64,000 nt of DNA from Fragilariopsis cylindrus CCMP1102 (taxonomy: Eukaryota; Bacillariophyta; Bacillariophyceae; Bacillariales; Bacillariaceae). The notes beneath the pieces are model-generated. The model saw only the letters and a list, made by a program, of their open reading frames with translations. It was not told the origin of the DNA and did no database searches. Positions 1,906 to 56,897 of the stretch are shown here, piece by piece. How positions within the stretch are numbered: the stretch's first letter is position 1; each line of letters begins with the position of its first letter. The position numbers were made by a program, and so were the translations under genes. Location of the stretch: NCBI GenBank assembly GCA_900095095.1, contig FMBT01000369.1, positions 124,001 through 188,000 on the forward strand. The letters are read 5' to 3'.

Positions 1906-2011
1906 AAGCTCAGTAGCTAGTTACTGTAGTAGTAGTACTTTTTTTAAACTTTTTCCTGTTAGAAAGCCTTTGCTTTAAATAATGCATCGCGCAAATTTCC
2001 AAACAAAACAA

Positions 2012-4096
2012 TCATAATTCTTTTGTCACCGTAGTCGGTGTTGTTCTTGCTGTTGTCGTCGTCATCATCAGTAGTTGTTCTCGTGATGAGGATGATGATA
2101 TTGATGTTGGTGCTATTATTGTTGTTCCATTTTTATCTTCAGTAACAAGCATCCAAAGAATAGGTGCGGCAATAACAACAATAATAGGAATTATTATCAG
2201 AGAATGATAATGCGGTTGCTTATTATAATATTGACGAAATAATGAATATGTTGTACTATTACCGTTGTTGTCGTTGTTGTTGCCGTTACTGTTACCGTCA
2301 CTCTTCGGCGTTGTCTCGTGTAGATTGGATGATGATGATGCAATCAATTTCATTTTCTCGGATCTATCATTATCATCACCGTGAATATTGTTGTTGTTGC
2401 TGTTGTCGACGTCATCGTTGAGATATTGTTGATCTGCTGTTGGACCAGCAGCAAGGAAATTAGAAATAAACTCATTCATTACTTCATCAACGTTATCAAC
2501 ATTATCATCATCCTTGTCTTCTACCGGAATCTTCGGTATTATTAGTGTTTCATTGTTATGGTTATGGTTATTGTTATTTGCATTGTCATTATCATTGTCA
2601 TCGTGATTGTCAACATCGTCATGTTCATGTTCATTTTCTTCTTCTTCTGATGAAAGAAAATTAGATACGAATTCATCTATAAAATCTTCACCTTCTTCAT
2701 CTTCTCCTCCTTTAGAAGTAGTAGTAGTAGTAGTAGTATCAGCAGCATTCTCTCTTTCTTCTCTTTCTTCTTCTCCCGAAAGAAAATTAGAGACGAATTC
2801 ATCCATGAAATCATCGCCTTCTTCTTCTACTATTTCTTCTTCTTCTTCTTTTTCTTTAGTAGTAGTAGTAGTAGAATTTTCTTTATCTTCTGATGAAAAA
2901 AAATTGGAAACAAATTCATCCATAAAATCATCGTCTTCTTCTTCTCCAAAAGGTTTGTCATCGTCGTCGTCGTTGTTGTCGTTGTTGTCGTTGTTGTTGC
3001 TGTTGTTGCTGTTGTTGCTGTTGTTGCTGTTGTTGCTGTTGTTGCTGTTGTTGCTGTTGCTGCTGTCATCAGTATCAGAATCAGAATCAGAATTAGTATG
3101 ACCCCAGTCGATATTATCACTTGAATCATCGGCTGATATTACTGTTGTTGTTATCACTCCTACTTCATCATCATTATTATTATTATTCCATGTATCTTTA
3201 TTGTATCCTAATTGTTTGACAGCAGAACGTTGCATCTTATCCAGGTGTATCCATTTTTTTGAAAAGACATCTAAAGATTTTATATCATTACTGTTCCATA
3301 ATATGGAATTATATCCTATTTCAATAGCATTTAATTTAATGATTGGTGGTAATTCATTCCATTCATCATTACACTCTAATATCCAATTATAATTATTGTC
3401 ATTATAATAATTGACATCATAATTGTCATTATAACTTTCGTTGTCGTCGTCTTCTTTTTCATCGTCATTGGAATTATCATTTTCACTGTCACTGTCATCG
3501 TCACTGTCGTTGGAATTACCATTTGAATCGTCGACATCGCTATTATTACTGCCCTCATTATCATCGGTACCATCGTATGGTATTTCTTGTAATAGCGACG
3601 ATACCGGTAATGCTGATATTGACGATGACGATGACACTATAATTGATGATAACGGCGATGATGATGCCATTGCTGTTGATGACTTTGACTTTGTTGTTGT
3701 TAAAAATAAAAGTATTTCATCGTTCGATAATTCCATAATTTTATCAACACGTTTTTGTAATAGTTGCACTTTCTTTGTAAGAAGAATGTCATCATCAACA
3801 TCAACAGCAACAGCAATAGGACTTTTTTCATTACTCTCATATCCATTTCCATTTTCTTCGTCGTCTTCTTCTTTATCATCATTTTCATCATCATCATCAT
3901 AGTCATCAATTATTTTCATTTGTACCATACCACGTATTTTTGACATCATAATTTTTTCATCTTCATTCATACGATTTTGTTTGATTTCTAATTTACTGAT
4001 CCATAAATCACATATATCTACTTCTATTGGTATACGTGGAATTTCGATCACCACATTCTTTTCTTCATTAAATGTTACTTCTTTTATTAGTACCAT
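2012..4096 (-). CDS. Acidic tail-anchored repeat protein, diatom LGY/W-type module, function unknown
   Basis: A 694-residue frame runs without interruption from ATG at 4096. The N-terminal ~60 residues look folded (IEIPRIPIEVDICDLWISKL). Around residues 255-300 there are two copies of a module I associate with diatom proteins: W.ELPP..KLNAIEIGYNS.LW and W..LDKMQRSAVKQLGYNKDTW. From about residue 385 to 555 a Phe/Asp motif occurs four times, spaced by acidic and Ser/Thr-rich linkers: FMDEFVSNFF, FMDEFVSNFL, FIDEFVSNFL and VMNEFISNFL. A single hydrophobic segment (SLIIIPIIVVIAAPILWML, about residues 630-650) lies near the C terminus, suggesting a tail-anchored membrane protein with its bulk in the cytosol. 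The 9-base repeat near 2990-3060 encodes Asn/Ser. Function is not known; the repeated EF.SNF motif could be a short linear interaction motif. Confidence 0.75.
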   Translation of the reverse strand: MVLIKEVTFNEEKNVVIEIPRIPIEVDICDLWISKLEIKQNRMNEDEKIMMSKIRGMVQMKIIDDYDDDDENDDKEEDDEENGNGYESNEKSPIAVAVDVDDDILLTKKVQLLQKRVDKIMELSNDEILLFLTTTKSKSSTAMASSSPLSSIIVSSSSSISALPVSSLLQEIPYDGTDDNEGSNNSDVDDSNGNSNDSDDDSDSENDNSNDDEKEDDDNESYNDNYDVNYYNDNNYNWILECNDEWNELPPIIKLNAIEIGYNSILWNSNDIKSLDVFSKKWIHLDKMQRSAVKQLGYNKDTWNNNNNDDEVGVITTTVISADDSSDNIDWGHTNSDSDSDTDDSSNSNNSNNSNNSNNSNNSNNSNNNDNNDNNDDDDDKPFGEEEDDDFMDEFVSNFFSSEDKENSTTTTTKEKEEEEEIVEEEGDDFMDEFVSNFLSGEEEREERENAADTTTTTTTSKGGEDEEGEDFIDEFVSNFLSSEEEENEHEHDDVDNHDDNDNDNANNNNHNHNNETLIIPKIPVEDKDDDNVDNVDEVMNEFISNFLAAGPTADQQYLNDDVDNSNNNNIHGDDNDRSEKMKLIASSSSNLHETTPKSDGNSNGNNNDNNGNSTTYSLFRQYYNKQPHYHSLIIIPIIVVIAAPILWMLVTEDKNGTTIIAPTSISSSSSREQLLMMTTTTARTTPTTVTKEL

Positions 4097-4106
4097 TATA
4101 TTTTAT

Positions 4107-4110
4107 TTTA

Positions 4111-4137
<27 letters not shown>
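4107..4137. repeat. CT/GA dinucleotide tract just upstream of a start codon
   Basis: A run of about 13 CT units lies 10 to 40 bases upstream of the ATG of the minus-strand gene ending at 4096, so it reads as a GA tract in its 5' leader or core promoter. A regulatory role is inference from position only. Confidence 0.6.
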
Positions 4138-4141
<4 letters not shown>

Positions 4142-4546
4142 ATTAGTAGTACTCGTTGATATTACTTTGCCAGGCCTTTCCTACCCATTGATTTTGTCGT
4201 TTGTTAGCTGTGCAACAAATATTCTTTGTTGTCGAACCAGGTAGCTGTAACGGTAGATCTGCTATGTGGACTTGTATCATGTGTTTATTAATTTTTATTG
4301 CTTGTTTATCCTTCGAGAAAATCTGAAAAAAAAAGTGTCGAGTTCGTTCGTGAAAAATAAAATTAATGACTGGCATGTCCCATCGATCGTCATCCGGCCC
4401 AACGAAAATTCAGGGTAGGGGACAATGGGTTACTTTTTTGAGGGAGATGTGCCCCTTAAATAGGACCCAGAAGCCAGCGCCTACCTCTATGAGAAGATTT
4501 GAAAATTTCAGATTTGAAAGAGAAGATTTGAAAAATTTGAAAAAGA
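4138..4546. other. Non-coding stretch with possible decayed coding fragment
   Basis: A short minus-strand frame (4143-4376) contains PLQLPGSTTKNICCTANKRQ, which looks protein-like but is too short to assign. Near 4430-4480 the sequence TTTTTTGAGGGAGATGTGCC resembles TTTTTTGAGGGAAATATGCC inside the right end of the piggyBac element at about 19796, so a small transposon-derived remnant is possible. No convincing gene is seen. Confidence 0.3.
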
Positions 4547-4737
4547 TTTTGTTTTTATGTGAATTCAGGATTTTTCTTCTGGCACGACTTTCAGTTGGAT
4601 CGACGACGAAAAAGCGAGAGATAATAAATAATGATTGACGACGGCATCATATTCGTTTTGTTTTTATGTGAATTCAGGATTTTTCTTTTGGCACGACTTT
4701 CCGTTGGATCGACGAAAGCGAGAGATAATAAAAAATG
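4547..4737. repeat. Direct repeat, two ~85-bp units at 109-bp spacing
   Basis: Units at 4547-4633 and 4656-4737 share TTTTGTTTTTATGTGAATTC, GGCACGACTTTC and GTTGGATCGACGA, followed by AGCGAGAGATAATAAA. They differ by a few substitutions and small gaps. Repeated GAAGATTTGAAAAATTTG words flank them. I see no gene in the repeat itself. Confidence 0.75.
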
Positions 4738-4860
4738 AAAGAGAAGATGTGAAAAATTTGAAAAAGAAGATATGAAAAATAAAAAGATTGAGCGAATGAA
4801 AGCAATACAGCTACCAAAAGTCCAACAGGCTCACAAATCTGTTTTATTCGTGAAACAAGT

Positions 4861-5019
4861 ATGGAATTACGGCGTTTACAACATCACCGATTGGTGACCG
4901 CCTCGCAAGTCCTATCTATCATGGCGCTGGTCATCTCCTTTTTCGTACTCGGTCTTGTCCTTTGGCCCTGTGGTCCTCTGGCTGGCGGCGGGGACTTGCA
5001 CGTTTGCCTACGTGGATAG
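4861..5019 (+). CDS. Possible small membrane peptide or orphan exon
   Basis: A 52-codon frame sits in a segment clearly richer in G and C than its surroundings (about 4870-5050). It contains a clean hydrophobic span (VLSIMALVISFFVLGLVLW) after a basic start (MELRRLQHHRLV). It may be a short single-pass membrane peptide, the first exon of a gene whose remainder is lost, or a fragment of a mobile element. There is no family match I can name. Confidence 0.25.
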   Translation: MELRRLQHHRLVTASQVLSIMALVISFFVLGLVLWPCGPLAGGGDLHVCLRG

Positions 5020-5406
5020 TGGGAAGCACGCCGCAGCCGAAACTCCGTATACGGTATTAGGCTAATCATTGGTCAGGAAAATATATACAGTACTATAAAG
5101 AGCGAATCACATAACCAATTTCGGGACCAAGGCAATAATTAAAAATGTAGACTCAATTATTTGAATAAGTACAGAACCAAAACTAATAATATGAATATGA
5201 AGGAGTATATAAGAACAAGCATAGATTTGATTTTAAAATTATATAACTAAGTACTACATAAATTATCATAAGCATATAACTTAGAAGATAGTTGAAATGA
5301 ATTCGGGGTTGATTGTATCCAACAGTTATTGAGTTATTAGCTGTTGACAATCCAGATGAATGATAAATATTTAACAAAATCGAGAGATTCAGATTGATGC
5401 ACATTG

Positions 5407-5456
5407 ATTCGAATTCGAATTCGAATTCGAATTCGAATTCGAATTCGAATTCGATT
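5407..5456. repeat. TTCGAA hexanucleotide microsatellite
   Basis: About eight perfect copies of the self-complementary hexamer GAATTC/TTCGAA. It lies in the gap 5020-5617, which otherwise shows no gene. Confidence 0.9.
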
Positions 5457-5617
5457 CGCCTTCTGTCCATTTCATTGATTTTTCTTCTTTTTTGTTTCCT
5501 ACCAGTAGGAAGAAAAAAAACAGCATGCAGAGTATACTGTACTCCGTGCTGCTTGCTGTATTTTCATCCGCCAAAGAGATAATAAAAGTATTGTAGGATG
5601 TATACTGTACTATACTT

Positions 5618-6784
5618 CTATTGTAAAAATCTATTGTAGTTCTTCTTCGAGTCTACAATAGTGTTGTTGTTGTTGTTGTTGTTGTTGTTACCCCACGTTG
5701 CGTTTCTGTTGTTGTTGTTGTTCGTTATAGTAGTATCAGATATAGTAGATAATATATCATTGTCAAGTCTTCCACCATTATAATTATGATTGTGATTGAT
5801 TATGTTGTTTCCATTTCGACTACTAAATGTACTACTAATACTATTCTTCATTGCTGACATACTGGTGGTGGGTAAATACAATAAATCTGAATCACTCATT
5901 GATGACGTCCATCTATTTTTGACCAATAATGATAATGATGATGATGATATTGATCGTTTACTAGCTGCAGTTGTTGTTGTTGGTGATTGTTGTCTTTGTG
6001 GCATTCGTAGAAACATATTATTACTGTTGATACTAGTAGTAGTAGTAGTAGTACCAGCTTTATTCGACTTACTATTACTTCGTGGATGCTTAGTATCATT
6101 TGTCTTTGTTGTTGTTCTTCGTAACGATGATGACGATAATGATATTGATGAAATTGGACCAGAAAATGATGCTGCTTTATTCCCTAGTAATGGCCTCTGC
6201 TTCCGTGTTGATGATGATGACGATAATGATGATGAATGTTTTAGTACTATTCCTAAATTATTATCACTATCCTCTCGAACAAGATAATCCCATCGACAAT
6301 TTTTGGTTTTGGTCTTTGCTTTGTTTGTAATACGACGTATACGAAATTGTTCTTGTATATAGCTATGTTCCGGTTTCGGATTATCAGCTACAATAACTAC
6401 AAGCAGGTTATTAACATGATTGTTCCTTTCGTTCTTATGGTATTCCTGTAACAATTTTGATAAGAAAGATGAATCTTTTACCGTATGATGTGTCGTACGA
6501 CTACTAGTAGTAGAATGCTGATGTGATTTCAAACAAGGATTGTCTTTCATAATACTTTTTGGTATACTATTAGACCTAGCAGTAGTAGTAGTTGTCATCA
6601 AATCGTTCTTATTCGCGAGTGGCGGCAGCTGTTCGTTATCATTATCAATATCCGTCTGCTCCTGATGCTCGCTGGTATTAATATCGTCCAGTGTTATGTG
6701 ATCTTTTTTATCATCATTGGCGTGTTGTTGTTCATCGCTACTAATACTACTCATAGGAGAATTAAACATTAATGATAGACGCAT
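5618..6784 (-). CDS. Ser/Thr/Asn-rich protein of unknown function
   Basis: A single 388-residue frame runs from ATG at 6784; an internal ATG 10 codons in (MSSISSDEQQ) is an alternative start. The only part that looks folded is about residues 110-185: FLSKLLQEYHKNERNNHVNN, LLVVIVADNPKPEHSYIQEQ and CRWDYLVREDSDN. The rest is low complexity (Ser, Asn and Thr runs, basic KTKTKN and SKSNK patches) and probably disordered. No signal peptide or membrane span is seen. PKSIMKDNP resembles short basic/Ser motifs of phosphorylated scaffold proteins, but that is weak. I do not recognise the family. Confidence 0.6.
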   Translation of the reverse strand: MRLSLMFNSPMSSISSDEQQHANDDKKDHITLDDINTSEHQEQTDIDNDNEQLPPLANKNDLMTTTTTARSNSIPKSIMKDNPCLKSHQHSTTSSRTTHHTVKDSSFLSKLLQEYHKNERNNHVNNLLVVIVADNPKPEHSYIQEQFRIRRITNKAKTKTKNCRWDYLVREDSDNNLGIVLKHSSSLSSSSSTRKQRPLLGNKAASFSGPISSISLSSSSLRRTTTKTNDTKHPRSNSKSNKAGTTTTTTSINSNNMFLRMPQRQQSPTTTTAASKRSISSSSLSLLVKNRWTSSMSDSDLLYLPTTSMSAMKNSISSTFSSRNGNNIINHNHNYNGGRLDNDILSTISDTTITNNNNNRNATWGNNNNNNNNNTIVDSKKNYNRFLQ

Positions 6785-7857
6785 TTGCAGCAGCAGTTGT
6801 TGTTCTTATAGTGGTTTGTTTAAGTTGTTGCTTTTCCTGGCTGATTTCTTCTTATTGTGTTGATGTAAATTTTATGTCACATACTTCAGTCTTTCTTCTT
6901 CATCTTACGTGAAGTATTTGGTGATATCGATGGCGATGTCGATGTCGATGGCTAATATGATGGGTCATGTAGTCATGTCTTGTGATACCTGTGAAACAGT
7001 GATAATGCGAACAATATAAGCAGTATGACTAAGTACTAACTTCAAACTGCTGTGTTTGTACGCGATTAATATTTAATCAATCGTTGTGGCGAACCGGCAT
7101 TTCTCTGCTTCGATTTCATTTAGCAAATCAGAAGTATTATGTACAGTACCGTATTTTCAAGCTTCATAACGCGATGGATGACTTGCGATGGCGATGGGCC
7201 CATTCTTTGCTGTCTTTGCACGACTGCAGCAAACAAGCAAAGCGAATTTTGATATTAGTAGCACAGCAGTACATTTAAAATAGAGATACTGTACTCCACG
7301 TGTAAGCAACAAAGCAAAAGAAAAAAACGCGAAAAGATAAAATATATGTGATGTTCTGCGTTCCTTCTTCTTCTTGTTTTATCACACGTGCTGATTTTGA
7401 CACAGCGGCGCGATCCGAGCCATTGCGGCATAATAAGGTGTCAATAATATTATTATTATTAGGCGAATGATATTATCAATTTTCACATAGTACAGTATAG
7501 TTACTATCACTTTCACTGTACCAGTATATAAAAAGAACAGAATTTTCTTCCGCAAAAAATATTTTTAAGATTTCCGTTCTTGTCTTGGGCCCATGATTAA
7601 CTGATGATACTAAATACACGTTCGTAGGATCATATACGTGTTATTATTACACAAGCATTACCACATGCATTCATTATTCATGATCCGTTCAAAAAACTTC
7701 AACTAAATCGGCGAGTGAAATACAAGAACTCATCTGAAAAAAACACAAACGAAAATTCTTCAATACAAGAACTCTTCGGGAAAAACTCGAACAAACACTC
7801 TTCTCATATCTTTACTTCCTCTCTCTTATTATATTCCCTTTTAATACGTACTAAGTC

Positions 7858-7888
<31 letters not shown>

Positions 7889-7898
7889 AAATACCATC
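6785..7898. other. Intergenic region between divergent genes, CAA tract at its right end
   Basis: No convincing coding sequence. It is the shared upstream region of the minus-strand gene ending at 6784 and the plus-strand secreted protein at 7899. A CAA repeat (about 7858-7889) ends 10 bases before the start codon at 7899 and probably lies in that gene's 5' leader. Confidence 0.5.
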
Positions 7899-8771
7899 AT
7901 GAAGCTTTCTTTTTTCCTATTCGTAAATTTCGCGTGCGGCGCAGCTGCTGATCAATCCTTACGAGGAGGTGAAAGTAATACCGGTGGTGGTATTACCAGT
8001 ACCAATATTCGATCATTACAACTAATGAATAATTCACTCCTTCAACCTGGTGAAAGTAATTGTGATTTACATTCAGATCTTGATGGTACGTATGTTTGTT
8101 CTGTCCGATCAAACGGATCTGTGAACGATGCAACGTATAGTCCTGAAACACATTTAGCATGTGTTACCAGTGGTGAAAGTCAATACTGTGCAAACATCGG
8201 TCTTTCTGATTCTGGTGGTATGATACCTGGCGATGGTGGTGGTGGTGTTGGACCTGGTTCGGATGATATGGCACCTCCACCAAATGACGGAGATATTATG
8301 CCAGATGTTGAAGAAGAAGCGCCATTTGATGATGTGTCAGATGATATGTCGGACGAAGATATGCCGGTACCTGGTGGTGTTGGACCTGGTCTGGATGATG
8401 TGGCGCCTCCACTATTTGGCGAAGATATTATGCCAGATGTTGGAGAGGTAGCGTCATTTGATGATGTGCAAGATGATATGCCGGACGAAGTCATGCCGGT
8501 ACCGGATGATGAAGAAGAAGTCAATCCACTACGACCAGGAGGAGGAGGAGGAGGAGCATCTCCAAACAGTGCTAATGGACTAATGCCAAATCAAGGTGGT
8601 GGTGAAAAATGTCCTGGAAATGTCCCAACACAAGGTGCGCATTGTGGTGGATGGGTTCCAACTGGAGCGAGTGAAGCATCCTGCTACTACAAGAACGGTA
8701 CTGAACAATGTAATTGTGCGTTACAAGATGGTGACGCTAATTCAGTCGGTTGGGATTGTCGTTCTATTTAA
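7899..8771 (+). CDS. Secreted acidic repeat protein with C-terminal Cys-rich domain
   Basis: The 290-residue protein starts ATCATG and begins with a short signal peptide (MKLSFFLFVNFACGAAA), so it probably enters the secretory pathway. A Cys-bearing segment follows (ESNCDLHSDLDGTYVCSV, HLACVTSGESQYC). A Gly/Pro/Asp-rich centre contains two adjacent 44-residue repeats with the motif GEDIMPDV and DEDMPVP. The C terminus is a compact Cys module: CPGNVPTQGAHCGGWVP, SCYYKNGTEQCNC, then W.C near the end. That pattern (CP..P..G..C...C.Y....C.C....W.C) recalls small extracellular Cys domains, and there is one N-glycosylation site (NGT). An extracellular or cell-wall role is likely; the exact function is unknown. 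Confidence 0.8.
   Translation: MKLSFFLFVNFACGAAADQSLRGGESNTGGGITSTNIRSLQLMNNSLLQPGESNCDLHSDLDGTYVCSVRSNGSVNDATYSPETHLACVTSGESQYCANIGLSDSGGMIPGDGGGGVGPGSDDMAPPPNDGDIMPDVEEEAPFDDVSDDMSDEDMPVPGGVGPGLDDVAPPLFGEDIMPDVGEVASFDDVQDDMPDEVMPVPDDEEEVNPLRPGGGGGGASPNSANGLMPNQGGGEKCPGNVPTQGAHCGGWVPTGASEASCYYKNGTEQCNCALQDGDANSVGWDCRSI
8244..8507 (+). repeat. In-frame 132-bp tandem duplication within the secreted-protein gene
   Basis: Copies at 8244-8375 and 8376-8507 both begin GGTGTTGGACCTGG and end with CATGCCGGTACC or similar. The period is exactly 132 bases (44 codons), so the frame is kept. The copies differ by scattered substitutions, which implies duplication followed by modest divergence. Confidence 0.9.
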
Positions 8772-8961
8772 TGATAGTAATAGTAGTAATGCCTACAAAT
8801 GTATAAAACTAAGTCAATACCTGTCCAAGTCACGAGAACTAGTGATGGAATACTAAGAAAACCCCGTCCTAAATACTATAAATTAAATGTTAATAAATGA
8901 AGTTAAATAAGCATCAAGATGTCTTGACATATATACCTTTCTTCTTTTCAATAGCATCCTA

Positions 8962-9762
8962 GTGCTGCGATCCCGTAGTAGCGTTCGAGATATCATAAAA
9001 CACGACGAACATCTCCTTGTCGTCGATGCTAGCTCACAAGTTTGTTACGCAGGAGTAAATCGAGAGCTTTGTTTTCACATCATCGCGCCAGCCTTATTCG
9101 ATTTAAAACCAATCATGGACCGGATAATGATCGTTCCGCTGCTTTGGTGTACACTCGAGACCATGCTATTCCCATTATTTGCTTTATGGATTCGTATTGC
9201 ATGGTTGAAAGCTCCGATTGGATTCATCGTCATCGAGAACATCAATTACATTTCCCTGGCATTGCCGTGGGAAGAACCTGGGCGTTACAAAAGAAGTCCT
9301 ACCGTGGCATTATTCCAAGGTATCATGATAAGCTTGGAAATTGAATGGTCGACAACTTTACAAACGGACGATCCTTAATAGATGCTACCGGAGGAAGAAG
9401 GAAACAAAACGATGTTGTACGGACCGACAGGTAACTTACCCCTCGATTCATTCATCTCGATTTCCTCCTTCGCTTACCTTTGATGCCTTCCATTTTCGTT
9501 AAATAGCTTTTGATGATGTCGAACTTTGCGTAAGAGCTCGACTGAAGTATCGAATCCCAACCTACTTTCTGCCTACAGTGTCGTACGTCATAATTTCACC
9601 ACAATACTGTGTGGTCTTCTAGAAGCAATTTTGTTGCTACGGAAAAGGGGCAAATACAATGATCCAAATCGTACCCGAAATACCAGGAATGGCTTACAAA
9701 TTCCGTGCCGATATCGAATGATGAGGATTCGAATTGTTTTCACATTGACTAGTTATATATAA
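8962..9762 (+). pseudogene. Decayed protein-coding region, family not recognised
   Basis: Overlapping plus-strand frames look protein-like but none is intact. One reads IPIICFMDSYCMVESSDWIH then HFPGIAVGRTWALQKKSYRG. Further on, another frame reads AFDDVELCVRARLKYRIPTY then IVPEIPGMAYKFRADIE. The switching of frames with preserved amino-acid-like composition suggests a gene broken by several changes rather than chance ORFs. I cannot name the family. The flanking DNA to 10529 holds no other gene apart from a short repeat near 10.1 kb. Confidence 0.4.
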
Positions 9763-10529: not shown

Positions 10530-13156
10530 TTATCCACCTTCACCAAAAATATATCTCATTTTTGTTGATGGGTCCAAAAAACCACGTGAACCGATAATAC
10601 AACAGGAACATTCACATATATTACCATTATTATCACGAAGTGCAGTAGTAGGGATATTATTGTTGCTACTATTACTATTAGTAGCAACTGCAACTGCAAC
10701 TGAGGATGATAATGATCGAGTAGTACGACGAGCCCTACTGATAAGGTCATTAATACTGTTCGTATTGCTGCTGCTGCTGATGCTGCTACTACTACCGCCT
10801 GTAGTGGTATTATTATTATTCAGCACACCGCGGACGTCGGTACCGATTCCAATATCACCAACCCTATTACCATTCTCGACTTCATCGTCAGGTATTGATG
10901 ATGTATTAGAATTAGTTGTCATGATAAGTTGAACATCATCATCATCATCATTATTATCGAGATCGATTGTATCACTGTTATCATTGTCTACTAAAGAAGG
11001 ACGAGGAGGTGGAGGCGTAGTAATACTGATCCGACCACCATTACTAACAACATTACCAACAACTCCTTGTTGTTGTTGTTGTTGACCACCGCCTTGAACA
11101 CCAACAACACGTTGTTGAAATGAACGTTGTCCTTTCCATCGTACAAGTTCTAAATTTTCCCATTCGAATCGTCTATAATATTCTGGATCAATATTCGACT
11201 GCAATTCCACCATTGCTAATTCTAAAAACTTATTACTATCATTATGATCAGCATTATCATTACCATTATTACCACCAATGTTGTATTGATATTTCTCGGA
11301 TTGTTCTAAAACAATTCTTTGATATTCAATTGGATCATATACTTCACGATGATTTGGATGGACTAATAATTGTTGTATACAAAAGAATAATTCTGGTAAA
11401 CTAATACTTGGATCCCAACTTTTTTGTGCACATAATATATATTATGCAAGACAATGTATATGCAAAACGTATCGAGAATAGAATAGAATCGATATGCAAA
11501 TGATCGTTATTTGGATTTGGTATCAAGAATTGAAAAAGCGTATCAATAACAAAGCGACGATTCGTTTCGTAACGTTTCGAAGAAGAAAAAAAGACAAGAG
11601 ACGTGGCGAGTATTGGTACATCATATTATATTTGATAAACCAAAAAATTACGGGTCAATCGATCGATCGATCGATCGATCGATCGGTTTGAGTTAAGTTG
11701 AGTTGTATGCAAAGAAGTGATATGAAGTAGAAGGATTTTTTTTATCAACGGTGGTAAAGCAGCATGTGATAGTGTATTTATCGAATAGAAGTGCGTGGCG
11801 GTGTTATAGATGAGTACAGTGCAGTATTGTTGATGAGAGATAGAACGAAAAGGGCTAAGTGAGTCTCATATCATATCATATCATATCATATCAAATCAAA
11901 GTCAAAATGAAAGATTACAACGGCGATTCAATACAATTCAATATCGAGGCAGTTAGTTCGATTGGACGATCGATACTAAGTTCAATTAAATTAAAAACTT
12001 ACGATCCTATGACACCACTAAGTCCAAATTCATTATGTTCTGCTAATAATGTATTAACATGTACACAACCATCCTCATCTATATTTGGATGGAAGAATGT
12101 TGTTGGGAACTGACATGTTGGTGGTACCTTTTTTCTTCCATTATTTGAGAATGTAATTAATAATGGATACAAGCCACCATACCAATCACTACCCGATGGA
12201 CCTGGTATACCAACAATTAAATGATATATATTGTTATTACTCGGTGCTCCTGTTAAATATTTCATTGGACGATAGACCACAAAGTCTTCAAAATATTTAT
12301 ATCTACCATAGGGTTGTTTTTCAATAATCCAATCACGGAAAAAATTAGATAACCAAGTATCTAAATTATCTGATACATTATTTTCTAAATTATCTGATAC
12401 TAATAATCTTGCTTTTAATGTATCAATTTCATGATCTTTTTGTTCTAATTGAATTTGTATTTGTGTCTGAACCATTTCCTTTAATTTCGTTTCCATTATT
12501 ACTGTGGTATGATATTCAACATTCTCATTATTATGTTGTGTATGCTCGTGTCGATAACCTTCCCAGGTACACCCTGATACAGAACATGGTATGATTTGTA
12601 ATGGACAATTCCCTTTTTCCACATGAGATCTAAAATTGGATAATTTACCTGTCCATGCACAACAAGTATTAGTTGTTGTAGTATTCTCGCTATTATTATC
12701 ATCGCTCGATGATTGTTGTTGTTGTTGTTTGATAGTACTAATATCATTATTCATACAACGGATAGTCATACTATTAATAAAGGATGTTAAGGCACGATTT
12801 GGTGGTATACCACCACCACCACCACCACTACCTACATTTTTCAGCATCTGTGTTCGACAAACAGGACAATTTTCATGTCCAGTATCTAATAATTCAGTGA
12901 CACAATCTTTACAAAAGGAATGTCCACACGGATCTAAGATCATGGGTGTATGATAAACAGTATGACAAATCACACACAATAAACTATCATCGATCATCAA
13001 AATACTACTACTGCTACTACTATCACTAATACCATTGTTATTGTTGTTGGTACTAGTATTAGTACTAGTAGTACCAATAATAAAATATTCTGGATCGTAT
13101 CCCATAATATAATTTTTAGTAGTATTTTTTTTACTTGGCGCTCTTATGCTGGGCAC
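10530..13156 (-). CDS. RING finger / TRAF-type zinc finger / ubiquitin-conjugating (E2) fusion protein
   Basis: Two exons: 12003-13156, then 10530-11418, joined across a 584-base GT-AG intron (donor TC|GTAAGT, acceptor AAAAAG|TT), giving 680 residues. Met18 (MGYDPEYF) is an alternative start. A C3HC4 RING lies at residues 61-100 (CVIC, CGHSFCKDC, CPVC). A TRAF/SIAH-like zinc finger region follows at about 131-208 (C.W.G, H...C, C...GCTWEGYRHEH), then a coiled coil (217-253), then a UBC fold from about 270 to 430. UBC landmarks are VGIPGPSGSDWYGGLYPLLI, FPTTFFHPNIDEDG and, after the intron, WDPSISLPELFFCIQQLL and HPN. The catalytic motif reads HPNIDEDGCVHV: His366 occupies the usual Cys position and a Cys lies two residues earlier. 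The C-terminal ~200 residues are Asn/Ser-rich with a Cys cluster (CECSCC). It likely acts in ubiquitin transfer, combining E3-type and E2-type modules. Whether the E2 part is active is uncertain. Confidence 0.85.
11657..11686. repeat. ATCG tetranucleotide tract inside the intron of the RING-E2 gene
   Basis: About seven copies of the self-complementary tetramer ATCG. It falls in the 11419-12002 intron, as do four or more CATAT repeats near 11873-11893. Confidence 0.85.
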
Positions 13157-13539: not shown

Positions 13540-14455
13540 CGAAGAATTAATCGAACAAAATGAATCCTCAATCAAATCAGCATAATAACAATGAAGAATA
13601 TGATGATGATTGCCATAAGATGACAGAAAATGATACATAGAACTATGTACAGATGGGGACAGTAACAATGCTACCGGAAGATGCAGCACCAACAGATCTA
13701 ATGGATACAGAAGATGGGTGGAGAATTTCAACACACCCACCAATGCATGTGAAAAACAAAGAAGAAAACAGAGGGCAAGATGTTTATGGATTTTCTAATG
13801 AGGCAGGATGAACATGTATTACAATACTACACACAAGCGGAATTCCACGTTGTATAGTACAAAATACAGGAACTATTCAAATCAACAAACAAAGTAAAAA
13901 TCGCTACAGATGGGGGAGCAATACCACTCAAAGGATTGCTGGGATTTGTACTATCTGATGAAGATGGAACAATACTGCTAACATGCTATGGACAACCATT
14001 TGGAAACGATCCACTATCTTTTAGATAAGTAATATATGCTCTACTCGCAGCATTGAGATTTGCAACGTTGATAACAGAATACTATGATTATATACTGCAA
14101 TGCAGGGAGCTAGCAAGAAGCAAGATACAGGTAGGTCTACACTGACAGTCTTAGCATGATAAAGAAATTGTTGAAAACACTACTGGACTCAGAATGGGAT
14201 ATCTTATCAGCAGCGCTACATAGGGCATTGAAGTACTTCAGAACTCCTCCAACAATTAGCTGGGTGAAAAGTCATCAGGATGAGATGGTGTATGATATAA
14301 GAAAGCAATGCCATTGGATGCATAATATCTTAACTCAGAAGCAGATGAACTGGCAACAATAGGACTAAAGAGACTACAAGAAAAACCTATAGTACCAATG
14401 GATCACAACACAAGTATACAATTTCACATAGAAGGATTGTTTTAAATCAGTATTA
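13540..14455 (+). mobile_element. Fossil fragment of an RNase H-bearing retroelement
   Basis: Translated pieces match the RNase H frame at 62.5-63.9 kb in order: EDAAPTDLMDTEDGWRIS, then the DGGA...KG region, then SEWDILSA, ISWVKSHQDE and the start of the ADEL region. It is the same family in the opposite orientation, clearly broken in several places and diverged, so an old copy. The gap between it and the RING-E2 gene (13157-13540) shows no gene. Confidence 0.8.
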
Positions 14456-16816: not shown

Positions 16817-19278
16817 CTACTCTGTTAGCTCGGATATAATACTACTTTCAGCAGTACTCACTGGTGATGGTGCTGTATATAATTTCTTTTCCACATGATA
16901 TGCTGTGTGACAATCAACTACTACCAAATTTCCACCCACACTCTTGGTAGAGTTACATAGGAAAAAATCGGCACCCTTCTCCAGACTACAGTCTTCACAT
17001 GCATACTTTGACATGTAGGCTCTTTTTCTCTTTGCTCCAGTATTCTTACCAGGACACTTGTGGTACTTGCAATAAGATGTAGCCCTATTCTTCTTAACAA
17101 CCACTGGTACAGATATATGATTCCTTCCAGGCTGGCGTTCCTTTTGTAGTTTAGAAGCAGCTTTACGATAACGAAGAGCTCTAGCACCAAGATCAGACAC
17201 TGGTGTTTGAGGAGTTGCAGTGTGTACTGTAGTAGGGGAGGTAAAATGTTGTCTAAATGCATCAGATCGAAGTTTTCTTCCATCCAAAGAAGATGAGGTA
17301 GTAGTAATATCCTTTGTAGCACTTGGTGCATCTCCAAAGCCTCTAGTCCGAATTTCGGATCCTTGTTGCAGTAGTGAATGAGTCAAATTGTTGATACATG
17401 ATCTCATTATCATTGGGGTCCTATCAGGATGGTACTTGGTGTAAAGGTACTTGTAGATGTTGTAGGCATTGTTAAGATTCATATTGAAAAACCTAGATGC
17501 TAACTTGGGCGACCAACCATGCAGATGTGATTCAGTAGAGAGATCATACTTGGCTTCAGCACCATTGCCTTTATCAATCAAATGATATGTTTGACAATAC
17601 ACCCATTGTTGCTCAGGGCAATCAACATCAGTGAAGTCCTTGTTCCTTCTGAATGTTACTGGATCCCTCAGCTTTCTCTGAATTCCTCCTCTTAGAAGAT
17701 TAGGACCATGAAAGTTAGAAAGCGTCTTGACATAGTTGTTATCAGCCCAAATAGCATAGGTAATGGGCTTGTCCTTGTGTTGATACATAACTGATTGATG
17801 TGTACCAACCTTGATCCCTCTTGCAGCGACAGTTGCCTTACCACGACTACCAGCACCAGTACGATTGGTTTGACAAGTACCCACCATGTTGATCTTCCAT
17901 TCTTCTCTTCCAACTTGACACATGGCATCACTCATGTAAGCAGAATCCATGACAACACAATGACCCTTATGCTTGAATGGATCAAGCATAAGGTCATAGA
18001 GAGAGATCATCTTGTATTTTCCATAATCATTGATCTCTGGAATATCTTCATCGAATTGACCACCATAGACTCTAGCAAACAACTTGAATGTACTGAGAGG
18101 ACCTGTAGTGATACAGACAGTATGAATAGTAGCTCCAGTTCGAATCGGTTTTGGTTCAGGTCCAATTGTCATACAGCTATGATACCAGCCACCAACTCTA
18201 CTTTCATCTGTAGTAATCCACTTGCCAAAGTTGACAATAGCTTGCCATCGCTTGTAAGAAGAAGAAGAAGAAGGAAGGTATGTGTTAGTAATCGATTCGA
18301 AACAACAACAACAACAACAACATATACAGTACATACCTTATTATATCCATCTTCCAATAGACCATGTTTCAATCGATGCTTTGCAGTGCCTGGTGGTGCA
18401 ACAACTTTTGGATCATCATATATGTCATCCCAATCACTACCACACTCTGGATCCCAATCGTCACTGTAGTGCAAGCATGTAGTAAGATCCTCCAAACAAG
18501 CTTTAGTCATTGCCTCTCTAATCGATGGAACAGCATCCATTATCTCTCTTGTTGAAAATATCTGATCAATCGATCGACCTCCATGGATCATTCTACATAA
18601 ACAAGCTCCATAGAATCGAGCCACATGATCTCCAGTTATTACTTTATCTCCTTTGTAATACCTTGGCTTGTAACCATTTTCAAGAACTCGCTTTCTCATA
18701 TAGTTTCTCATCCTAGCAGCCTGGAATTCATATAGAGTTTGATCATTATCATCACCAAACTTAGGACAACACCATTGAAACACCTTCTCAAACCTGATCT
18801 CACCCCTTTCATCCCTTAACGAATCTAACTCTTCATCAGTTATGTTAACAGTGAACTCTTCATCTCCTTCCCATTCAAGCGGCTCGATTGGACGTCCACC
18901 CCTATCATCTCCATCATCTTCAATAACAACCTCATCCCATTCGTCTGGCTCTGTTCTATAATATTTTTTTGTTTCTGTTTCTATTTCATCATCACCATCT
19001 CGAATAGGGTGTTGGGTTAGTTGGAATTCATTGTAGGTGGAGGAATTGAAGTCTGCATACTTATAGATAGCATCATAAGCCATGAGGTAGAGAGCATCAT
19101 CTTCTTTAGTATCTAATAATAAATTCCAGCGTTGACTGATTTCACAATACGAATCAATAACACCATCATGTAGCCTATAGCCTTTGCAACCATCCCACCA
19201 GTAATCAGGGACCTTCATAGACAGTCCTACTAATGATTTGGCCCATTCGACACTGATTGGGCGTCTTTTAGGAGGCAT
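16817..19278 (-). CDS. piggyBac transposase (DDE_Tnp_1_7 family), two exons
   Basis: Exons 18337-19278 and 16817-18250 are joined across an 86-base intron (donor AAG|GTATGT, acceptor TTACAAG|CG), giving 791 residues. The N-terminal ~300 residues are acidic with a WW.GY-type start (DYWWDGCKGYRLHDG). The catalytic core carries the family's three Asp: D329 in WITTDESRVGG, D416 in HCVVMDSAYMSD and D484 in YAIWADNNYVKTLSNFHG. GTCQTNRTG sits at the expected place after the second. The C-terminal end is a Cys/His-rich DNA-binding finger: CKYHKCPG, YACEDCSLEKGADFFLCN, then CHTAYH. The enzyme would cut and paste the element at TTAA sites in the nucleus. All catalytic residues are present and no break is seen. 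Confidence 0.93.
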
Positions 19279-22917: not shown

Positions 22918-24502
22918 ATGATGATATCAATAGCTCGGATATCATCGTCAACTTTATTGTTGTCATTGCTATTAGACGTTAGTAATGCTAGATCAGCATT
23001 AGCATCAGCATCTCCATGGCTGCGTTTAACAACAGCAACAGCGACGACGACGACGACAGGTTCCTTTTTCTCGAAACGACGTCGTCCGATTAATACTAGT
23101 AGTAGTAGTAGTAGTAGCGTACATCACATTTTACGAGGTGGAGGATCGGCGGATACAACACGACCAGCAACATCAACAACAACCTCAACAATTTTCGATA
23201 ACACCGCAGCAAAAACAACTAAAACAGCAACACCGAGTATTCATGCTGAATACATACATCAAACCACCGGTGGGGGTATAATACCAAAGATTAGCGTGAC
23301 TGAAAATGCAGATAATACAAATTCAAATACAACAACAGCCACGGAACCAACAACATCACCACCACCATCCATTGATAAATCGACCAAAAAAATATTAAAA
23401 CAACAAACGAAAGTAATTAAGAAAAAAGATAAAGAAATAAAAAAATTACATAAACAAATTGCTAAAAAATTAAAGGTAAGTTAAGTTTTATTTATATATT
23501 GAAAAAAAAGTATTAAAAGTATGAAGAAAAATCGTTCTTTTTTTGTTTTCGTCTGCATCTGCCCGCAAAGTAAATTATATTCATTGAACTATATCACTCA
23601 CTCACTCTATATTCTCCACACTCCTCTATAACTACATTTTAAAAATCTATTATTTAATTCATTATTATTATTATTATTATTATTATTACTAGAATCGTAA
23701 TGCTACCAATAAAAGACGTAAATTTATGCATTTTGCCTGGGGGATCTTATTTGCCTCCTTGAATCATTTTCTACCACGATCGACATTTTTACCAATCATG
23801 TCGACTTTGACGGCCATTACGTTATTTATGGAATTAATGCGATACCGTGAGGGCTTTCAATGGATTAATACCAGTATGCATTATTTATTTGGTAAAAGTT
23901 TACGAAAAAGTGAAATGGATGGTAAATTTACTGGATCCTTATATTACTTTGCCGGCGTGACTGCCACGAGTTACCTGTATCCACAATCTTGTGCGACATT
24001 GGGGATTATACAATTGGCTATTGCGGATCCTACTGCCTCCTACTTTGGTCGTGCTACACGACATGTCTACTGGTCACGGATCAATAAAGGTTTTGCGGGT
24101 GGACTGGGTCGTAATAAAGGTATATTAGGATTCTTAGGTGGTGGACTGGCATGTGTACCAATTAATTATCGTATATTAAGTTTAGCCTGTAATACAGTTG
24201 TTCGTAGTAGTAGTATTGGTGCTAGTGGTGCTGGTGCTAGTACTGCACTGGCCATCAGCAATCCCACAATATTGATAGCCTCCTTAGTATTAGGATTGGC
24301 GGGTGCCTTTGCGGATTTAATTGTACCTACACCAGCATTAACATTACCAAAAACGATTTGTGGAAAAACTGTACCACCATTCCATTTAGATGATAATTTT
24401 ATTGTACCGGTCTTAAGTGGATATGCCTGTACACAAATATTTAAATACGTCTTGGGTGTACCATCCATGATTGTACCATTATCAAAATATCTAATTGTCT
24501 AA
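22918..24502 (+). CDS. Dgk1/Sec59-type CTP-dependent lipid kinase-like membrane protein
   Basis: Two exons (to 23475; 23693-24502) with a 217-base GT-AG intron (AAAG|GTAAGT ... TTACTAG|AAT). The start at 22918 (CACCATGATG) gives 455 residues and puts a signal-type sequence first (MMISIARISSSTLLLSLLLD, then ALASA). An in-frame ATG at 22843 would add 25 residues. Residues 40-170 are low-complexity Thr/Ser, ending in a Lys-rich coil. Exon 2 is polytopic and matches the CTP-transferase family: KRRKFMHFAWGILF at its start, LAIADPTASYFGRATRHVYW (the DP.A...GR signature), GRNKGILGFLGGG and ADLIVPTP. The family phosphorylates diacylglycerol or dolichol with CTP in ER or plastid-related membranes. Which lipid is used here is not decidable. 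The N-terminal leader could direct ER or complex-plastid import. Confidence 0.8.
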
Positions 24503-26448
24503 ATAACTACCCTATAAGAATCCAAACACTTAGGCTACTTAAGATGATGATGATGGTGATGATATTTACTATAATAAATAATTATAGAGAATTAAACATT
24601 TTAAAATTAGATAAATTTTTTAAATTGGTATACTTATTAGTATTCCTATTTTTATTACGGAAGGGAATTATTTTATCAGACATATCAGGATTGCCATTAC
24701 GTACAGTAGAGTACTGTACAAATGAACGAAACGAAACGAAACGAACAGGAGTCAAGTCGAGTCGTTTTTTTTCCGGCGGCAGTCAAATTATTTATTTTGT
24801 TGACCAATCCTTTCACAAACAAATACACATACACACACACAAATATACACACACAACGGCAACCCGGCCCAGCACAGCACAGCATAGCACAGTCCCAAAA
24901 AAGTACACCACACATACACTGGTAGGACCCCAAATATTATGTTATACTATGATTCTATCATTTTTTATCTTAAAAATGATGCTACTATTCATCCTACTTA
25001 TTGTTTAATATATAATATAATATTATAATGTATTTACCTTTAAACACGTCTGTTTGTAATAGAGAGTAGAACTACATGTAACAGTCCAATACGTAGTGGA
25101 ATGATTTATTTATCTATTTCTGTCATTTATTTCCCGTGTGTACGTACCTAAAATACTGTAATAGCCAGTACTTGTTCTTGTTAACTGTAAAGAATATTGG
25201 GATAGATTAATTAACTGCTTAGAAAGCACAGACTTTTCACCTAGGACAGATAGCCGCCGACGCCGCCGACGACGACGCCGACGACGACCGCGTATAATGG
25301 TTTGTTCACACCTAGTCTATTATATTGCTACTAGCAGCAATCACCGCGTAGCTTCTTGTAGTAGGGCAGTACTCTAATCATGTTCTGTGATGTAATGTAA
25401 TGCAATGTAATGTAATGTGCTGTGCTGTGCTGTGCTGTGTATTATGTGACGCGATTCCTTCCGACTCTATCTCTCGTATGTCTCTCTCTCTCGATCTCTC
25501 TATCTATGTTTCGAACTACAATACGTTACTGTAAATTAATTGAAAATTGACTCAACTCAAATCGACTCCCTCGACTCAAATCGACTCCCTCGACTCGACT
25601 CGACGACTAGAACGACTAAGACAAATTAGCGAGAACGCGCATAATATAAGTTAGAAATGTATTATAACTCTACGGTATCCCAAAAAAGTATTTTGAAGTA
25701 TCAATACGACGCTAACATTATGCTGTATATTTGTTACAAAAGAACACAGTTCCTGAGATTTTCCTTCATTAGAACATACTCTTCCTAATATCAAGGTAAG
25801 CCGTCTCCAATTTCGAATCGCCACAAGAGGTGCATAAGAGAGAAGGATCGTAGATCAAATAATAGAGTAGGAGCTAACCTCGCCCGTTCTATAATTAGAG
25901 TGTTAGAAGGGGATCCATTGGAGCTGTTTTTTTTGTTCTGTAGAATCAACACCCATCAAATAACAGTAGCAGCTTTATGCCGCTAGGAGGACCATGATCT
26001 ACACTCATTTCCTTTCTCATTAGTATAGGCCGGTTAGGTTATTTCTTATAAAATCCACTATCGATAGACTAATCGATCTATTGGTACAAGTTATAGTGTT
26101 CGAAGGAACAAAATTAATTGATTAATGTTTTAGTAAACGTGCACGTTGCTATTGTGAGTATGCATACACTTCGTTGCTAACAATCGGCTCTTAGACTGTC
26201 TTAGCATAGTGGTCACACGTTATGAAAACATCTATACTGTAGAAGGCTAGCTTAGAGTACGATATTTTTATATATATATATATATAGTTGCTTTGCTATC
26301 AAAAGATACTGATCGTATGTGTTTACTAGGCATTTGAGTTGTAGATCTATATTGTTTGACAGTGTTTACTCTAGTAAGGAAAAGATATTCACTTAATGCA
26401 TTCATTCATTCATTTTCATCGCCTGAAACTTTATCTGAAACTCGATAC
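24503..26448. other. Intergenic region with simple repeats
   Basis: No gene seen. It contains a GCC/GAC trinucleotide run (about 25255-25292), TGTAATG and GTGCT runs (about 25385-25440), TCTC runs, CGACTC repeats (25555-25610), a TATA run (26270-26286) and a copy of the GAAGAGGTGCA-type dispersed repeat at about 25795. Short plus-strand frames near 24544-25008 look like read-through of 3' flanking DNA. Confidence 0.5.
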
Positions 26449-29400
26449 TTAGATTTCAAGATTAGTTGCTGCTAATTGTACCCGTTCAGATGTTAAATTA
26501 ATTTGTTCTTGTACAATCTTATAATTATCGTCCTTTTTTCTATTATTAATTGCCTGTTGTATACCAGGAAATGCTTCAGCTGCATAACCTAAATCTATTC
26601 CCGGTGCCTGTAAACAATGTTTAAACCATGGCCGACCAGGTAAACCATCTTTTAGTAGAAAAAAACGTTCTGTTAAACCTAATTTTTCATTACATACATC
26701 AATTTTATTTGATAATAATGTAATAATGTAGTCATCAGCATTATCATTATCATTACTATTGCTGATTATTTTATTATAATTATTATTACTCTTCGTGTTT
26801 GTGTTATTACTACTGTTATTATTAACTTGATTCGACGACGATGATGACGACAATAACATTGATCTCTTCTTCGAAATATCATAACAATGTGATTGAAGTT
26901 TCGCTGCATTCTTTTTATAGTTCATAACAGCATCTGTTAGATTATGTAGGTCGATATCACGATTATTTTTATAATGATCGTGATCGCTGTTGCTGCTGAT
27001 GCCGACGACTCTACCACTACTAGCACTAGTACTACTAGTAGTAGTGTTAGGAGTACTAATATTCAATTCCTGTTTGAGATACGATATGTATCCATCTAAA
27101 GAATTACCTTGAATAACATGATCAATTGGTACGACTATAGATGTTGCCAGTCGCATTGCTTTATATAAATAGATACAAAAAAAAACATGATGAGAGATGA
27201 TATCGAAGATGACAAAGAAAGAAATGATGTATTTTTTGTTTTGTGTTTTGAGATAGCAACAACAGCAACAGCAACAGCAACAGCAACAACAACAACGACA
27301 ATGACGATGACGATGACGACACTTTTTTTTTCTCCTCTTCTGTATACACATCATTCAATAGATGCAGCACAGCACAGTACTGTACGTGTACGTACCTAAT
27401 AAACCCCAAATTTTAGATGCAAATTCTATTAATTCAAATGCATTGCAGTTGTCATCGTTATTCTCATTCTCATCACTATTCCTAGTATCTCTATCACCAC
27501 TACTAGTACTAGGACTAGTATTTGTACAACCACCATATTTATTCATCCAATCAAATGAATCATATATAGAATGATATACACCATACGTACCACCCGAATT
27601 TTTTTTGGAGTATGAAAAATCTAAGGATGGTATACCAAAATGATCTAAAAAGACTGTATAATCACTACCGGAACCTAATATACCAATATTATTATTATTA
27701 TTATTGTCTTGTTGTTTATTATCGCCATTAGTATTGTCATCATTTTCAATTATTTCCCAATCAGTATTCGCATCACGGATTGTTACATTCTTGAGAAATC
27801 TTGCATTCTTACTACTACTTATTCGTTCGTTTATACTACTTATATTACTAATAGTACTAGTACCAGTACTACTGCTACGTTTTTCATTTTCATTCATTTC
27901 CTTTTCATATTTTAAATCATTTATAACAGATTTCCATAGTGTTATTAATGATGGTGAGGATGATACTTTTAATTGATCACCCGATACTATTGTATCTGTA
28001 TTTAAATAGGCTAATGAACGTTGTAATCCTGATAGTAATCGTAATTTTGTGTTTGAGGATGATGTATTATTACTATTATTCATACTACTACTTTCCATAT
28101 TCATATTCCGAATATTTAATTCACTCCATCCCGTGGAACCTAATAGACCATATTCTTCCCCACTCCACGAACAAAAATAAATAGAACGGAGTGGTTTCCA
28201 ATTATGATATTTATATAAGTATCCTAATCCTTTGGCTACTTCCAATAATGCAGACGTGCCCGAATTGGGATCACTGGCACCATAAATCCAGGCATCTCGA
28301 TGATTGCCTAATAATATTGGTTGGTCTAAATGATTTTCTAATTCTAATTCTTCTGGTGTTGTTGCTGTTTGGTTATTATTATAATGTATTCCTGGTATGA
28401 TACCAATCACATTGGATATATTCACAATTGCATCTTTATTATCAATAATTAAATCGAGATATCCTTTCGATGGACCAATTTTATAGGTGACATTTGTAAT
28501 ACCACCTTCAAAATTATTTTGAATTGCTAATGGAATTTCTTTGATCGAGAGACCACCTAAATTTTGTAAGAGTGGTATCACATCTTCATAACTTAATGGT
28601 ATCGAGGGTATACTGGGTATAATATCGGACGTATTGACACCACATAATTGTTCGACAACACTTGAATTTGTATTTGAATTATTTCGTCCCAGTCCTAATA
28701 AAGTTTGATATCTTGGATCAATTCGATATGGATCACCACCACAATGTGATATAAATTGAACGGATCCTCTTTGTATGGAGGATGCTGATCTCCATGGACC
28801 ATTTGGATAGACAGTCCCTTTATTGTATCCATCGTCATATGGATCACTATAGATAATTACACCAATCCCACCATGTAGTTGAGTATTATAGACTTTCAAC
28901 CCTCGAAAGCCTACGGATATATATGTATTCATATTTTATTTTATATTTTATTTTATATCAAAGAATTACCGGGAGGAGGAAGAAAAAAGTGAAGTGGGGG
29001 GGGGGGACAACAAGATAGATTAGATTTTTTTGTAAAGTAGACAAAAGACGTAAAGTAGACGTATAGAAGAAGACAAAGAAAGACGAACGCAACGCAACGA
29101 AAAAGAAACGTACATTTCCCATATCGTACAATGACAATTTTATTAGTAATTGTGATATTTAAAGATTGTAAGACCTGAAAATCTTGTGGTCGACCATAAT
29201 TAGCATAGATAAATTTCTTATCATATAAATTACCACTGGGACTATAACCATGAAAACTATGATTTCTCCATATGGTATCATCCGTATTGGATGAATATTC
29301 ATCACCGGATTCCTTATCATTATCAAGTATAATATCTTCACTTAATTTTGCTTGATATAGTAATTTACGTTTTTCTGTATTCGATGTACTGCCATCAGAT

Positions 29401-29993
29401 AGTTTCTTCTTTTTCTTCTTCTTCTTCTTCTTGCGATGACTACGACTACGACGTAATACCTTTTTCTCACCAATAATAATTATATCCTCAGCCAGTTCCT
29501 CATCGTTTTCGTCTACAACTTCCATATTATCTTCATCGTATTCTTCATCCTCATCATCCTCATCCTCCTCATTATTAGTTATTTCCCATAATGATAATGA
29601 TGATGTTGGTGTATTTTCATTATTTTCGAAATCGAAATTAGGATAATTTAATTTCACTAATAACTTATCAATAGTCACTATTGGTAATCCAGCATTCAAG
29701 AATTCATTTTGTACATATTCTGCCATTAATGCATCCCCTTTTGTACCAGCAACATGTGGTAGTCTTGTTAGAAAATATAACGATGATTTTGCTAATGTGG
29801 CATTTGGAATTTTTAAAAATAATTCTTCCTCGATCGAAAATCCATCATCATCATCACCATCTATTGATCCTTGTCCTTCGTTTGCTGATACAACTGATGA
29901 TGGTAAAAGGATAAGAATAAGAAGACAACAAATCAAGTAAAGTGGGTGTCGTTGTTGTCGCGAAGAAGAATCGATTATTATCTTCATCATCAT
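26449..29993 (-). CDS. Glutamate carboxypeptidase II-like M28B peptidase (NAALADase / PSMA family)
   Basis: Three exons (29114-29993, 27396-28910, 26449-27158) with GT-AG introns of 203 and 237 bases give 1034 residues. A basic start and one hydrophobic span (LYLICCLLILILLPSSVVSA) indicate a signal anchor. The protease-associated domain shows GIGVIIYSDPYDDGY and IQRGSVQF. The zinc peptidase residues are all present by comparison with human PSMA: His497 (GNHRDAWIYG), Asp507 (DPNSG), Glu545/Glu546 (CSWSGEEYGLLGSTGWSE), Asp599 (AYLNTDT) and His740 (YGVYHSIYDSF). The third exon supplies the start of the C-terminal dimerisation region (LAMRLATSIVVPIDHV) and a helical tail (LPGRPWFKHCLQAPGIDLGY, then FPGIQQAI). 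Compared with the usual ~750 residues, the extra length is low-complexity inserts, including a Glu/Asp stretch followed by a ten-Lys run near residue 190. It should remove C-terminal acidic residues from peptides outside the cell or in the secretory lumen. Confidence 0.9.
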
Positions 29994-56663: not shown

Positions 56664-56897
56664 TGTTGAGATTCTAGTTTAGACAAGAGTTTAATGTTAG
56701 TTGTTAAGGTTGTTCTAAACGATTTATGAGTTCTATCTTAGGCTGTTAGGCTGTCCTTGAGACGCTGTGTTGCTTGTATTAGTGATAGGCATTTGTCGTT
56801 TGAATTAGTGGTTGACTGGCTTGTTTGACTGTTTGAATCGGTGCGCGATAGTAACGGTATTTGCGGTCTGTCCGTCGTGCGTGTTAAGATTTCAACA
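56664..56897 (-). repeat. 3' LTR of the copia element
   Basis: 234 bp, TG...CA bounded, same sequence as the 5' LTR. The RT/RNase H frame runs into it. Confidence 0.95.

Follow-up and report, generated by a model that had tools for sequence, protein, structure and literature searches.

A Fragilariopsis cylindrus gene encodes a RING and an E2-like domain with histidine in the catalytic cysteine column

A two-exon gene on the minus strand of the DNA analyzed here encodes, in a single polypeptide, a C3HC4 RING, a Cys/His finger region, a probable coiled coil, and a UBC domain that has histidine in the column of the catalytic cysteine. The DNA is a 64,000-nucleotide stretch of Fragilariopsis cylindrus contig FMBT01000369.1 (positions 124,001 to 188,000), referred to below as the window. 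With slightly better than even confidence, and judging from the sequence, we read the product as a RING/finger ubiquitin ligase that would use a separate E2 and that carries an appended UEV-like, noncatalytic E2 module for binding or regulation.

RESULTS

The RING-UBC gene consists of two open frames, 13177-11999 and 11441-10530 (Table 1). An earlier note on this DNA had proposed that an intron at 11419-12002 connects them, and our analysis reproduced this intron exactly. It has GT-AG ends and joins the two frames in frame; the second of the two GT-AG pairs tried within a short range led to stop codons. When codon log-odds were computed with ten other open frames in the window (putative genes) as the training set, each exon had positive values in its correct frame, and the intron had negative values in every one of its six frames. 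Translation from the ATG at 13105 to the stop that ends at 10530 gives a spliced product of 663 amino acids. Residue numbers here differ from those of the earlier note because the latter were counted from a GTG at 13156; the ATG is the likelier start for a nuclear gene. The low-complexity tail encoded by exon 2 matched only itself in a search of the genome.

Table 1 Features of the RING-UBC gene, in window positions
Feature	Position	Strand	Residues and remarks
Exon 1	12003..13105	(-)	Residues 1-367 and two bases of codon 368; in-frame coding-type codon bias
Intron	11419..12002	(-)	584 bp; donor GTAAGT, acceptor AAAAAAG; no coding bias
Exon 2	10530..11418	(-)	Remaining UBC domain, low-complexity tail, C-terminal CECSCC stretch; stop included
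C3HC4 RING	12854..12976	(-)	Residues 44-84; Arg84 directly follows the last ligand
Cys/His finger region	12509..12757	(-)	Residues 117-199: C117, C149, H161, C167; C174, C179, H191, H199; finger grouping by eye
Probable coiled coil	12371..12496	(-)	Residues 204-245; judged by eye from the translation
UBC domain, first part	12003..12367	(-)	Residues 247-367; sheet, HPN, active-site segment; helix 1 assumed
GCVH site	12059..12070	(-)	Gly346-Cys347-Val348-His349; His349 in the catalytic Cys column
UBC domain, second part	11286..11418	(-)	Residues 368-412; invariant Trp, WDPS, C-terminal helices

The C3HC4 RING described in the earlier note is well supported. Pfam zf-C3HC4 matched residues 44-83 over its cutoff (E = 7e-10), and all eight zinc ligands are intact in C3HC4 spacing (C44, C47, C60, H62, C65, C68, C80, and C83). 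In the PDB, the RING matched those of RING2, TRIM21, and TRAF2. We take Arg84, the basic residue after the last ligand, to occupy the linchpin position; a basic linchpin at this place is usual, if not universal, among RINGs. Passages of PMC12326332 report that a linchpin Arg stabilizes the closed E2~Ub conjugate. Since all of the RING ligands are present and Arg84 stands at the linchpin place, the ligase half could plausibly use E2~Ub in trans.

The other half of the protein is homologous to UBC domains. Pfam UQ_con matched residues 280-412 over its cutoff (E = 9.8e-16), a match that spans the splice. Against a UBC profile built from 11 other E2 domains of the same genome, the spliced protein scored 50.3 bits, exon 1 alone scored 38.6 bits, and exon 2 alone scored 6.9 bits. 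The best of 1,000 shuffles of the UBC part reached 7.3 bits with the same profile, so the score of the spliced protein is beyond chance. Exon 2 by itself falls below the best shuffle, yet it adds ~12 bits once it is joined to exon 1, which, together with the span of the UQ_con match, bears out the proposal that a UBC fold is spliced across one intron. With both Pfam domains over their cutoffs and the UBC domain crossing the splice, the RING and the UBC domain do belong to a single spliced polypeptide, as the earlier note had it. The UBC profile matches start at residue 280 or later, and the stretch N-terminal to that point contributes a match to the PYG motif only. Single-sequence structure prediction of the exon 1 part of the domain gave a mean pLDDT of 39.9.

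Three alignments agree that histidine occupies the catalytic column. HMMER aligned DGCVHV of the window domain over SGTVCL of SCE1, and His349 fell in the same column when the domain was aligned by MAFFT with 17 E2 domains of the genome and when it was aligned to the 11-member profile. The His366 of the earlier note, and the Cys364 that it placed two residues before, thus correspond to His349 and Cys347 when the count begins at the ATG. His349 is encoded by CAT (12061-12059) and Cys347 by TGT (12067-12065). A single-base error at His349 was considered and rejected: a change from Cys to His takes two base changes, so one sequencing error cannot explain the histidine. The HPN motif is kept (residues 339-341), as is the invariant Trp, which lies within WDPS.

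Beyond HPN, Cys, and Trp, the E2 signature as laid out in parts of PMC4604453 includes a Ser/Asp site that is usually followed by Pro; the same parts describe this gate site as not strictly conserved in UEVs and as Glu in two E2 families. At the gate position, the window domain has Glu-Val in the profile alignment and a ten-residue gap relative to SCE1 in the HMMER alignment, and an Asp-Pro pair is found three residues past it. The alignments lean toward loss of the Ser/Asp-Pro gate. The Phe of a CQF motif and the Pro of WDPS are both kept. We take the former to be the counterpart of UbcH5 Phe62 and regard it and the WDP proline as RING-facing residues.

We compared the domain with the other UBC domains of the genome. 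A genome-wide search, which scored the best candidates only, gave 29 UBC matches with haplotype copies counted apart; 6 are exon pieces that stop short of the catalytic column, and 23 span it. By eye, the column holds Cys in 20 of these 23, the exceptions being the window gene (His), L033 (Asp), and L037 (Glu). L033, a Cys-less UBC frame that includes C573:3136-3549, is presumably FTS/AKTIP-like, and L037 is presumably UEV-like. Both also lack HPN, and the window gene is the only one of the 23 to have HPN without the Cys. None of the 20 matches with a canonical Cys has a second Cys two residues before it (by eye). The RING pattern was found in the window gene, which served as the control, and at none of the 26 other UBC loci (holding the other 28 matches) in flanks mostly between 1.5 and 2.7 kb long (for L032, 227 bases on one of the two sides), within which introns can hide the pattern.

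Searches of the genome turned up the gene only once; at the DNA level, apart from the self-match, there were two short hits, 45 and 32 bases long. On one flank (23600-30000), the first 1.95 kb has an 83% partner on contig C738, and on the other (2000-9500), the best candidates were matches of ~250 bases or less. The gene may be either collapsed or hemizygous. With pieces of the protein as queries, 11 stretches on viral contigs and 34 on bacterial or archaeal contigs matched a pattern, and no orthologue was confirmed from these; queries with the UBE2D-like and UBC9 domains of the genome found nothing on the viral contigs.

Several other elements were seen in the window. Approximately 600 bases upstream of the RING-UBC gene start, on the opposite strand, is a retroelement piece (13702-14436, plus strand), a remnant sharing 48% identity, over 252 aligned positions, with an RNase H-like frame at 62559-63581. 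Frames at 56738-60783 (minus strand) have weak RVT_2 (just under the cutoff) and retroviral SH3-like matches and, with a gag-like frame at 60912-62282, have the look of a copia-like element. A DDE_Tnp_1_7 transposase frame, which we take to be of the piggyBac type, lies at 16817-18337 (minus strand; E = 1.4e-10). The window also holds an M28 peptidase (27355-28935, minus strand; E = 2.7e-15) and the C-terminal part of a sideroflexin (47428-48030, plus strand; E = 2.7e-48), the first part of which seems, by eye, to be the upstream frame at 46220-47023.

To place the E2 half among E2 families, we used pairwise scores and a tree. Among the best 60 of 245 PDB sequences matched by the E2 half, the top 15 rows were named SCE1, UBC9, Ube2i2, E2 I, or E2-18 kDa, and no row was named as an E2 variant. 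E-values began at 2.1e-14 (SCE1) and were followed by those of E2 B (4.9e-11), E2 A (2.5e-10), and E2 D2 (8.2e-9). Within the genome, the highest score was to UBC9 (47.1 bits; next, 35.5 bits). The local score to this UBC9, which we joined by eye from two exon frames, was 164 (z = 21.4; next best, z = 17.7), and that to L037, a stretch of 88 amino acids, was 52.5 (z = 5.1). The PYG motif after helix 1 is common to the window domain and UBC9. In a tree of 18 E2 domains, no branch was starred; the window domain was placed with UBC9, L004, and L037 at 73/75, which is weak, on a branch flagged as long (2.33, compared to a median of 1.31). Its highest identity in the tree set was 28%, and this was to L004 and not to UBC9. 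Kinship to UBC9 is the likeliest reading of these scores rather than a result, and the comparison leans against kinship to UEV1/MMS2. On its back side, according to sections of PMC12687455, UBC9 holds SUMO with a basic corner made of Arg13, Arg17, and Lys18. By eye, W-IIEKQPYG of the window domain stands against W-RRDHPYG of UBC9, which would replace this corner (MAFFT placed the residues otherwise), and the SUMO-binding basic corner thus seems to have been lost.

Between the RING and the coiled coil, the finger region aligns with that of a RING-finger paralogue in the same genome, represented by L011 and L012. Over the RING and finger together, L011 is 30% identical and L012 27% identical to the window protein. 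L011 and L012 are found on contigs C648 and C401, and since both contigs share silicon-transporter matches, we take the two to be haplotypes of one locus. Across the genome there are 27 matches to the silicon transporter family, ranging from 31.1 to 756.9 bits and all above the cutoff of 26.8; among 14 control genomes, one gave a match, and it lay below the cutoff. This distribution is consistent with a diatom. L011 has Lys in place of the His ligand of the RING, the L012 frame is without the first half of the RING, and the RING pattern was found in neither; no UBC match was present on either contig in the genome profile search. The coiled coil of L012 was weakly matched by a model named ATLF (17.6 bits, with a cutoff of 27.4; E = 0.0033), which we set aside as a chance coiled-coil match.

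The finger region of the window protein has a C-x-W-x-G...H...C pattern that we take for the look of a TRAF finger, and the earlier note had named the region TRAF-type. Profiles did not support that name. Pfam zf-TRAF gave no match in the whole protein at E values up to 1 or in residues 147-244 at E values up to 5, the latter in a piece without C117 and with HMMER filters that drop most weak matches. Neither zf-TRAF nor a TRAF/MATH domain was among the 17 Pfam families listed for the whole protein at E values up to 1. The zinc-finger model nearest to residues 147-244 was Sina_ZnF, under its cutoff (E = 0.039), and when a three-row profile of the RING-finger region was run against the PDB, none of the best 60 of 148 sequences reached the C-W finger. 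Of the three kinds of model that the earlier note had in view, the RING and UBC models therefore matched the protein and zf-TRAF did not.

DISCUSSION

From these features, we infer a ligase whose RING, like that of ordinary RING ligases, would most likely recruit a charged E2 in trans, and which possibly acts as a coiled-coil dimer. Thioester formation at the usual position would be impossible for the E2 fold. It may instead work in the manner of a UEV, as a noncovalent docking site for ubiquitin, a ubiquitin-like protein, or a partner E2, so that a UEV-type docking module would be built into the ligase and not recruited. As described in passages of PMC5702613, the RING-finger ligase TRAF6 builds chains with Ubc13-Uev1A, a pair made of an active E2 and a UEV. 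We favor UEV-like docking because the RING and the inactive E2 variant of that trio would here be in one chain.

The earlier note had left two options for the E2 part, relocation of the Cys and a UEV-like noncatalytic scaffold. A UBC fold detected by profile and the loss of the catalytic Cys speak for the second. Certain features argue against it: the intact HPN may point to residual catalysis or to a recent loss, Cys347 is close to the catalytic column, an Asp-Pro follows the gate position by three residues, and Glu at that position is, in the parts of PMC4604453 cited above, also a feature of two E2 families. A further point against it is that, by eye, the domain does not retain the SUMO-binding basic corner of UBC9.

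The main rival to UEV-like docking is self-occlusion of the RING, which we consider unlikely. Here the pseudo-E2 would be an intramolecular decoy that occupies its own RING or that of a dimer partner and, until displaced by a ligand or a modification, keeps the ligase off. Retention of the CQF Phe and the WDPS Pro in a domain that has lost its Cys is consistent with such a decoy, as is the long linker between the RING and UBC domain of one chain.

It is rather improbable that the gene is a lineage-specific fusion in decay, with an E2 half drifting as a functionless relic. The long branch of the UBC domain, the failure to find a second gene copy, and the transposon remnant directly upstream would fit decay; against it, 663 codons have stayed open, the RING ligands are intact, both exons have coding-type codon bias, and the E2 half retains HPN and Trp.

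A more far-reaching version of the favored reading, to which we give little credence, is that the protein represents a diatom ligase class in which a UBC9-derived pseudo-E2 has been welded to a ubiquitin RING, with the former SUMO E2 serving as a sensor that aims ubiquitin ligation. Just as doubtfully, such a SUMO-directed ligase might sense a SUMO-like or ubiquitin mark or the SUMO machinery itself, its E2 fold taking the place of SUMO-interacting motifs.

We think it very improbable that a relocated Cys347 makes the E2 part active, which would turn the protein into an E2 and an E3 in one. The proposal draws on a Cys where SCE1 has Thr and on the intact HPN and Trp, and we found nothing further in its favor. 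The position would be an unusual one, given its absence from all 20 canonical-Cys matches of the genome, and the Ser/Asp-Pro gate is out of place; to our knowledge, no E2 has its catalytic Cys shifted two residues earlier. Hardly credible is a gene-model error in which neighboring RING-finger and UBC genes were read as one, as a single exon, with no interruption, codes for the RING and the greater part of the UBC domain, and the reading frame of that domain continues across the intron.

Normally, the RING and the E2 domain belong to different proteins, which bind each other weakly. A natural RING-UBC fusion did not appear in the portions of the open-licence literature that our searches reached, in which E2/E3 hybrids such as UBE2O came up, nor in the portions covered of PMC11354881, PMC4327156, PMC3667038, PMC4604453, PMC12687455, PMC12326332, PMC5702613, PMC2408969, and PMC3422240; the layout may already be annotated in eukaryotic sequence databases. 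The existence of a natural chain combining a RING with a Cys-less E2 fold would demonstrate that ligases can carry a UEV-type helper internally, and the RING-UBC protein would offer a ready system for asking what effect a pseudo-E2 has on its own RING, be it activating, aiming, or blocking. The SUMO and ubiquitin pathways would be linked in one protein if UBC9 truly gave rise to the E2 part.

Among known proteins, the RING2-UBE2D3 chain (PDB 4r8p_L) likewise has a RING and an E2 in one chain; its E2 is D3, and we read the chain as man-made from its molecule name alone. The E2/E3 hybrids UBE2O and BIRC6 resemble the window protein in having a UBC domain within a large multidomain protein. Their UBC domain is catalytic, and they are not known to have a RING. 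L028-L031, which we take to be the UBE2O/BIRC6-like frames of this genome, keep the Cys and show no RING pattern. Ligases of the RNF125 and TRAF types share the order of a RING followed by Cys/His fingers but have no UBC domain, and the same is true of the L011/L012 paralogue, in which the RING frame is degenerate or truncated. By pairwise score, the nearest relative of the E2 half is UBC9/SCE1, with which it has PYG in common and from which it differs in its missing catalytic Cys, its altered gate, an insertion before the Trp, and its replaced back-side basic corner (by eye). The likeness in function that we favor is to the UEVs (UBE2V1/MMS2 and UEV1A) beside TRAF6, in which a Cys-less E2 fold works with a RING-finger ligase. 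UEVs are separate chains. The window domain, by contrast, is part of the ligase polypeptide, has retained HPN, and gives a higher score to UBC9 than to the UEV-like L037.
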